Assembly (NCBI GenBank): GCA_009908425.1
Contig: JAAAPF010000335.1
Span: 1-37,650, forward strand
Reading direction: 5' to 3'
Length of the DNA: 37,650 nucleotides
Source of the DNA: Alphaproteobacteria bacterium
GTDB taxonomy: Bacteria; Pseudomonadota; Alphaproteobacteria; Geminicoccales; Geminicoccaceae
In this document: piece by piece, positions 6,823-8,606 of the stretch
Numbering within the stretch: position 1 is the stretch's first letter
How the letters are laid out: each line of letters starts with the position of its first letter
The notes under the pieces: generated by a model
The model's input: the letters and a program-made list of their open reading frames with translations, nothing else
Told to the model about the DNA's origin: nothing
The model's database searches: none
Program-made: the position numbers and the translations under genes

Positions 6823-6948
6823 GATTTCCGGTCCGCTCCGTTGGCCGGGCGCGCTCACCCGCCGGGGCCGTGGCCCACGGGGTAGGGCGAGCGCGGCGTC
6901 CCCTCTTGCCGTGCGCCGCCGTGAACATGCCCGCCGCGGCGCGGGACC

Positions 6949-7686
6949 TCAACGGTTAAGCCAGTCTTCCAACCACGCTTCGAGGTCGCTCGCGTCCGCG
7001 AGGGCCGATGTCCCGGCGGGTGTCTCGCCCGTCGGGGCGACGACGACGCCGGTGCCGCCGCGCGCCGCGGCGGCGCGCACCCCCGCCATCGCCTCCTCGC
7101 CACCGACGAAGACGGGGCGACGGCCTCGAAACGGCGGCTCGGCGGCGAGCGCGGCGAGCGCCGTGGCCTCGTCGTGACCGGCGGGGAGCAGCTCGACCAC
7201 GCCGTCGGCGGCGCGCAGAGCGAGCTCGCCCCCGGCGTCCACGAGCGCGCGCTCGGTCGCGGCGCGCGCCGCCGCGGCGGCCTCGCCGCCGGCGTGCAGC
7301 GCGAGCGCGACCCCCTTGTCCTCGAAGCGGACGCCGGCCCGGTCGAGGGCGAAAGCGGCGAGCGCCGCGCGCGCCGGGGCCAGCGCCGCCCCCGGCTCGA
7401 CGCTCACCCGGCGACCATCGTCGAGCCGGCGGTCGAGGCCGTGCACGCCGGCGAGCGTCAGGTTCAACGGCGCGACGAGATCGTCGAGTTCGGCCACCGT
7501 GCGGCCGCTCACCAGCGCGAGCGCCCCGTCCAGTCGGTCGTGCAGACGCGCCAGCAGGTGAACGCGTTCGGGTGTCACCACCCCGGCGGCGGTACCCGGC
7601 GGCACGTCGATCAGGCTCGCGTCCAGGTCCAAGAACAGCGCGATCGTCCCCGGCGTCGGCACCGGCGGTCGTGCGGCCTCGCTCAT
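6949..7686 (-). CDS. otsB: Trehalose-6-phosphatase-like protein with degenerate HAD motifs
   Basis: By position and overall similarity this is OtsB, the HAD-family phosphatase that converts trehalose-6-phosphate to trehalose. It has 245 residues from the ATG at 7686, which has a GAGAGGA ribosome site; longer starts up to 7773 lack support. The fold is recognisable: FLDLDASL (residues 18-25), LVSGR (58-62), FEDKGVALALH (121-131) and VVELLPAG (163-170). However, only motif I aspartates D20 and D22 and motif II S60 remain. The usual DGT of motif I reads DAS, the motif III lysine after PAG-x-D is replaced (HDEATAL, E173), and the metal-binding GDDxTDE reads GGEEAMA (195-201). It may be weak, inactive or regulatory. 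It is the first gene of the minus-strand trehalose-chaperone block. Confidence 0.85.
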   Translation of the reverse strand: MSEAARPPVPTPGTIALFLDLDASLIDVPPGTAAGVVTPERVHLLARLHDRLDGALALVSGRTVAELDDLVAPLNLTLAGVHGLDRRLDDGRRVSVEPGAALAPARAALAAFALDRAGVRFEDKGVALALHAGGEAAAAARAATERALVDAGGELALRAADGVVELLPAGHDEATALAALAAEPPFRGRRPVFVGGEEAMAGVRAAAARGGTGVVVAPTGETPAGTSALADASDLEAWLEDWLNR

Positions 7687-7796: not shown

Positions 7797-8606
7797 ATGC
7801 TCGGCGCGATCGCCGGCGACATCGTGGGCTCCCGTTTCGAGGGGGCGGCCGCGCCGCCCTACGGCTTCGCCCTGTTCGATCCGGCGTGTCGTTTCACCGA
7901 CGACACCGTCTGCAGCCTGGCCGTCGCCGCGGCGCGGCTGGAGGGTGGCGACTACGCCGCCAGCCTGCGCGACTTCGTCCGCCGCCACCCCCACCGCGGC
8001 TACGGCGCCATGTTCCGGCACTGGGCGTTCACCGACGATGCGCCGGCCTACGGCAGCTGGGGCAACGGCGCGCCGATGCGCACCGCCGCGGTGGGCTGGC
8101 TCGCCACGAGCGAGGCCGAGGCCCGGCGCGAGGCGGCGGCGCAGGCGGCGGTGACCCACGACCATCCCGACGCCGTGGCCGCCGCCGAGGCGACGGCCCT
8201 CGCCGTCTTCCTCGCCCGCTCGGCGCGGCCCACCGCGCGCATCGCCATCAAGCTCGAGGGCGAGTTCGGCTACGAGCTGGCGCCGCGAACGGCGCTCACC
8301 ACCGCCTTCGACATCTCGGCCCGGGGCACCGTGCAGCCCGCGCTCGCCGCGGCGCTCCACGCCGACAGCTGGGAAACCGCGGTGCGCACCGCGGTGAACC
8401 TGGGCGGCGACACCGACACGCTGGCCTGCATCGCCGGCGGCGTCGCCGAGGTCGTCCACGGTCTGCCCGTCGACGTCGCCGCCACCGCTCGGCGCCACCT
8501 CACCCCCGATCTCGCCGCCGTGCTCGACCGCTTCACCGCCGCGCTCGCCGAACGGTCTGCGGAAGGCCCGGAGCGCGGGGCGCGGCGAGCGTTAGGGCGG
8601 GGTTAA
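7797..8606 (+). CDS. ADP-ribosylglycohydrolase family protein (DraG-like fold)
   Basis: Member of the DraG/ARH family, Mg2+-dependent enzymes that remove ADP-ribose from proteins or small molecules. The 269-residue protein starts at the ATG at 7797, behind a GGGAGGGGG ribosome site; the long reading frame upstream is not coding. Metal-binding motifs are intact: GAIAGDIVGSRFEG at the N-terminus, FTDDT (33-37), YGSWGNGAPMR, THDHPDA, and NLGGDTDTLACIAGG (about 201-215) with the two aspartates of the di-metal site. The target cannot be told from sequence: no dinitrogenase or DraT gene is nearby. It is divergent from otsB and 54 bp upstream of motA. Confidence 0.88.
   Translation: MLGAIAGDIVGSRFEGAAAPPYGFALFDPACRFTDDTVCSLAVAAARLEGGDYAASLRDFVRRHPHRGYGAMFRHWAFTDDAPAYGSWGNGAPMRTAAVGWLATSEAEARREAAAQAAVTHDHPDAVAAAEATALAVFLARSARPTARIAIKLEGEFGYELAPRTALTTAFDISARGTVQPALAAALHADSWETAVRTAVNLGGDTDTLACIAGGVAEVVHGLPVDVAATARRHLTPDLAAVLDRFTAALAERSAEGPERGARRALGRG

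Follow-up and report, generated by a model that had tools for sequence, protein, structure and literature searches.

In the structure of the trehalose-6-phosphate (T6P) phosphatase of Brugia, Mg is bound by Asp213 and Asp215 of motif I and by Asp424 and Asp428 of motif IV, and the phosphate is contacted by Thr253 and by the motif III residue Lys398 (PMC4081830). The HAD residues are missing from yeast Tps3 and Tsl1 and from several TPS proteins of Arabidopsis, and purifying selection has been reported on the plant TPS genes (PMC1769515). Tps3 and Tsl1 contact Tps1 and Tps2 (PMC9635654). In Mycobacterium tuberculosis a second OtsB homologue, OtsB1 (Rv2006), is found beside the active, essential OtsB2 and is dispensable for trehalose synthesis (PMC11046441); it has been termed a pseudogene (PMC3744402). 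A literature search on T6P phosphatase as a "pseudoenzyme" found no paper in the library searched.

The stretch of DNA analysed here (the window, 37,650 nucleotides) is contig C251 of a 3.36 Mb draft genome in 356 contigs, which is 93.9% complete with a contamination estimate of 4.23%. On its minus strand, at 6949-7686, lies a gene for an OtsB-like protein of 245 aa, recognized from its open reading frame, profile matches, alignment and predicted structure. Both the profile match and the gene order bear out the original prediction that this is an OtsB homologue next to otsA. The gene is probably an otsA-linked otsB whose product died as an enzyme after being replaced, and which is still kept as a folded, non-catalytic protein.

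The reading frame starts with the ATG at 7686, and the open frame extends to 7773. All 245 codons are open and collinear with the relatives, with no stop, frameshift or truncation; a frameshift or sequencing error was considered and is ruled out by an alignment that stays collinear through to the C terminus. The protein matches the Pfam family Trehalose_PPase (PF02358) with 46.9 bits (cut-off 27), the match ending before motif IV, and is predicted to have the HAD fold with a C2-type cap. Its score against the NCBIfam T6P phosphatase equivalog TIGR00685 is 67.6, marginally below the cut-off of 68.05. It resembles the bacterial OtsB proteins (Salmonella 6UPB-E, Burkholderia 6QJ6; TIGR00685/PF02358) in fold, length, position beside otsA, motifs I and II and most cap residues; what it lacks is the Lys of motif III and the Asp/Asp/Thr/Asp of motif IV.

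The order of transcription on the minus strand is otsB-like (7686-6949), otsA (6858-5410), dnaK (5218-3305) and dnaJ (3215-2079). The T6P synthase gene otsA is intact, with its substrate-binding motifs present and a score of 569 bits against TIGR02400, above the cut-off. The dnaJ-dnaK-otsA order is a conserved block, common to the sister genome G001 and to G010. The otsB-like gene and otsA are separated by a gap of 90 bp (6859-6948), at the place where most relatives in the family have a trehalase-like GH15 gene; no trace of a GH15 remnant was seen in this gap.

The extent of the lesion was established by comparison with 65 other otsA-linked OtsB sequences from Pseudomonadota, in which 46 alignment columns are near-invariant (at least 85% conserved). 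L113, whose OtsB lies in a long frame of wrong length, and L108, a duplicate of G005, were excluded from the retention and rate tests. Motif I (7621-7629, minus strand, computed from the ATG) retains the nucleophile and the acid/base, D20-L-D22, followed by Ala-Ser instead of Gly-Thr. This DGT to DAS change is mild by itself, since DGC, DGS or DGV occurs in several intact relatives. Motif II (7501-7509, minus) retains S60-G-R62. The position of the motif III lysine (7168-7170, minus) is occupied by Glu173, where all 65 relatives have Lys. Motif IV, GDDxTDE, has become G195-G-E-E-A-M-A201 (7084-7104, minus) and is one residue shorter, so that Asp-Asp-x-Thr-Asp reads Gly-Glu-Glu-Ala-(gap): the first Mg-binding aspartate is replaced by Gly and the second falls into the gap. 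K173, D196, D197, T199 and the next Asp are 100% conserved in the 65 relatives, and every one of them is changed here. Alignment with the PDB homologues 6upb and 6qj6 confirmed the loss of motifs III and IV, and the counterparts of Brugia Lys398, Asp424 and Asp428 are missing.

The residues named in the original prediction (D20, D22, S60, E173, G195, G196, E197 and A201) are all exactly as it gave them. To its losses the alignment adds P32, E85, the Arg of HYR (in a gap), P134, G160, G174, G217 and A225, and to the retained residues R62, G83 and the invariant cap and core residues H82, R87, E122, K124, H131 and E165. Altogether the protein keeps 30 of the 46 near-invariant positions (65%) and has lost 16, compared with 81% kept in the worst of the other sequences and a median of 96%. 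The losses are concentrated on catalysis: K173E, G174A, D196G, D197E, T199A, the next Asp, E200M, G23A, T24S and the Arg of HYR. With neither the lysine of motif III nor the two aspartates of motif IV that bind Mg, the protein should be unable to turn over T6P. There can be little doubt, as far as its residues tell, that it is dead as a T6P phosphatase, in agreement with the original prediction that it might be inactive.

The lesion is absent from the five best matches among 385 genomes of the class, and searches of the family and the class found no ortholog that shares it. No ortholog with more than 47% identity was found in 31 genomes of the family, the 385 class genomes or the GTDB contigs. 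Because there is no close ortholog, dN/dS is not computable.

It had been suggested that T6P would accumulate unless another phosphatase exists, and a search of the same genome for a second T6P phosphatase found one (G000:C153:38266-38943), upon which T6P build-up was rejected. This second OtsB has all its motifs intact (DYDGT, SGR, DKG and GDDVTDED) and scores 163.5 bits against the T6P phosphatase equivalog model (cut-off 68.05). Of the PDB entries, M. tuberculosis OtsB2 (5gvx, 8e-51) matches it best. In the OtsB tree it falls into a separate clade, B, with a support of 99. A GH65 gene follows it, and the sister species G001 has the same otsB-GH65 arrangement; the pair occupies 8060-11497 of L090 (G000:C153) and 8473-11712 of L091 (G001:C64). 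The GH65 protein matches the models of family 65 hydrolases and kojibiose hydrolases below their cut-offs, and could be either a trehalose phosphorylase or a trehalose hydrolase.

Judged by placement in the tree, clade B is apparently the only OtsB accompanying otsA in 13 genomes of the family (G001, G002, G007, G009, G010, G012, G014, G015, G016, G018, G020, G025 and G026), for which reason the clade B enzyme very probably suffices for OtsA. The sister G001 and G010, a member of another genus, retain dnaJ-dnaK-otsA with no otsB upstream, and no credible match to an otsB remnant was found beside otsA in G001, G010, G002 or G014. G005 and G045 retain both the clade A and the clade B copies. Loss of clade A copies seems to have happened repeatedly in the presence of clade B. 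Most of the inspected family members that carry a clade A OtsB have the order otsB-GH15-otsA; at the window locus the GH15 gene has been lost and the altered otsB retained, and the one GH15 that turned up elsewhere in the genome, on C60, is a distant paralogue of about 33% identity. The absence of the otsA-side copy from the sister species and from another genus, together with the 13 genomes having clade B alone, leads to the view that the otsA-side OtsB is a displaced copy, and it was very likely the C153 enzyme that displaced it. The ancestral otsA-linked OtsB would then have had its job taken over by the intact enzyme beside GH65, which would now serve OtsA. This would be a clean case of an enzyme replaced by a distant paralogue, in which the old copy, still beside its partner gene, loses mainly catalytic residues. 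A comparable arrangement, that of M. tuberculosis OtsB1 and OtsB2, differs in that OtsB1 has 1327 aa, whereas the inactive copy in the window consists of one domain and adjoins otsA, with GH65 as the neighbour of the intact copy.

The main alternative, a lesser possibility but one to be taken seriously, is that the gene is a plain relic: a redundant otsB in neutral decay that has so far escaped stops and frameshifts, or whose frame is open only because breakage would lower the expression of otsA downstream. The gene would then show an enzyme caught in the course of being lost. The intact C153 enzyme makes the gene redundant, the copy beside otsA has been lost in G001 and G010, and the gene lies on the same strand as otsA, upstream of it across the short gap, as the expression variant assumes. 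In the OtsB tree, moreover, no genuine terminal branch is longer than that of this protein (1.81, median 0.41), and its relative rate is the fastest among 64 genomes, with a ratio of OtsB to OtsA distances of 2.9 against 2.1. Both values are compatible with relaxed selection. The failure of the family and class searches to find an ortholog with the lesion, and the sister species managing without this copy, likewise weigh against maintenance.

However, the less conserved positions do not follow the near-invariant ones. The protein keeps 28 of 43 positions that are 60-85% conserved (the median of the others being 0.69), 24 of 58 that are 40-60% conserved (0.49) and 21 of 56 that are 25-40% conserved (0.30), which is a normal level of retention alongside the loss of catalytic residues. 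Neutral decay was simulated starting from eleven intact relatives and was stopped once 30 near-invariant positions were left. No premature stop arose in 38% of the runs, in accord with GC-rich frames seldom being hit by stops. Frameshifts are harder to reconcile with neutrality: 2-10 are expected at indel:substitution ratios of 0.02-0.1, the gene has none, and the probability of none is 0.001-0.16 for ratios from 0.1 down to 0.02. As many moderately conserved positions were retained with a probability of 0.06. The naive product of the three probabilities is about 0.001. Because the mutation parameters are assumed and medians take the place of the ancestor, this figure is taken as moderate evidence for residual selection, which the retention of positions also favours. 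The GC content by codon position, 0.85/0.57/0.89, is a strong coding-like pattern that also argues against a relic. On the side of relaxed constraint, no gene of the window has a higher GC at the first position, and the coding potential ranks among the lowest there (0.19 per codon). The original prediction that the gene seems maintained is supported by the unbroken frame, the coding-like composition and the retained fold-level positions, and the chance that the protein is still selected as a folded, non-catalytic one is put a little above even.

An AlphaFold2 model of the protein, computed with 50 relatives, has a mean pLDDT of 94.5. It superimposes on the Salmonella T6P phosphatase 6upb_A with Z 31.2 (239 residues, rmsd 2.1, 36% identity) and, lower among the matches, on a domain of the trehalose synthase regulatory protein of Candida (5HUS) with Z 19.9 (232 residues, rmsd 3.0). 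The confidence of the model may reflect the alignment rather than the protein itself and is no proof of folding, because alignments guide such models. As the cap and core residues remain, it is possible that the protein binds a disaccharide phosphate without turnover. If the otsA-side protein is indeed expressed, folded and retained, which is suggested more weakly than its displacement, its non-catalytic role would most likely be to bind T6P or OtsA through the preserved cap and core, by analogy with the pseudo-phosphatase domains of Tps3 and Tsl1 in the fungal synthase complex. The Candida C-terminal domain 5HUS likewise has an OtsB-like fold without a working HAD site and belongs to the trehalose synthesis pathway (PMC1769515), but the fungal domains belong to large fusion proteins that work in a complex of eukaryotes, whereas the window protein is free-standing and bacterial. 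A more specific proposal is that the protein is a free-standing bacterial pseudo-phosphatase which, with its T6P pocket preserved, senses T6P or serves OtsA as a regulatory subunit, a counterpart of Tps3/Tsl1 and of the plant TPS proteins with inactive phosphatase domains. The loss of catalytic residues would agree with a pseudo-phosphatase in general; the specific proposal appears unlikely. Should the protein have a function, OtsA-side pseudo-phosphatases, familiar from fungi and plants, would occur in bacteria too.

It is much less likely still that the protein remains a phosphatase with a rearranged active site, possibly for another substrate, in which E197 and E198 substitute for the motif IV aspartates and water or an Arg for the lysine. 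Such an enzyme would draw on the intact D20, D22, S60, R62 and cap residues. The original prediction had left room for nearby residues to supply motifs III and IV, and this fails for the lysine: Lys124 is the only lysine of the protein, none follows it, and no neighbour can therefore replace the one in motif III, so that this candidate was ruled out. For motif IV only E197 and E198 are available as stand-ins, with both Mg-ligand positions lost and one residue of the motif deleted. None of these changes is tolerated in any of the 65 relatives. In the Brugia enzyme the replacement of either motif I Asp alone abolished activity (PMC4081830), which bears only indirectly on motifs III and IV.

An assembly or binning artefact, with wrong bases or a foreign contig, might be suspected in so fragmented a draft with its contamination estimate, but is hardly credible given that the dnaJ-dnaK-otsA order is that of the sister G001, OtsA is 72% identical, the base composition matches that of C153 (0.723 and 0.725), and 16 losses concentrated in near-invariant positions of an unshifted frame are not what sequencing error produces. 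A gene annotated as otsB and adjoining otsA is not necessarily a phosphatase gene.

Divergent from the otsB-like gene, at 7797-8606 on the plus strand, lies an ADP-ribosylglycohydrolase-like gene; it scores 44.8 bits against the DRAG model (cut-off 337) and by that model is not a dinitrogenase-reductase hydrolase. Elsewhere in the family, the drafts G021 and G022 carry otsA and gave no match to OtsB. With a completeness rating of 99% for G021, either the removal of T6P there is unexplained or its otsB lies in an assembly gap. An otsB split across two frames (G028:C257 777-1393) and an otsB fragment of 49 residues with a stop (G057:C37 7948-8094) are possibly broken genes or assembly errors. 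In many relatives the GH15 gene forms part of the trehalose operon: it is situated between otsB and otsA in L093, L094, L095, L096, L098, L101, L102 and L104, and at 6932-8710 in L106. Its product is trehalase-like by NCBIfam and resembles the archaeal trehalases TreH1 and TreH2, in both cases below the cut-off, and an operon for trehalose synthesis is an odd site for a trehalase.
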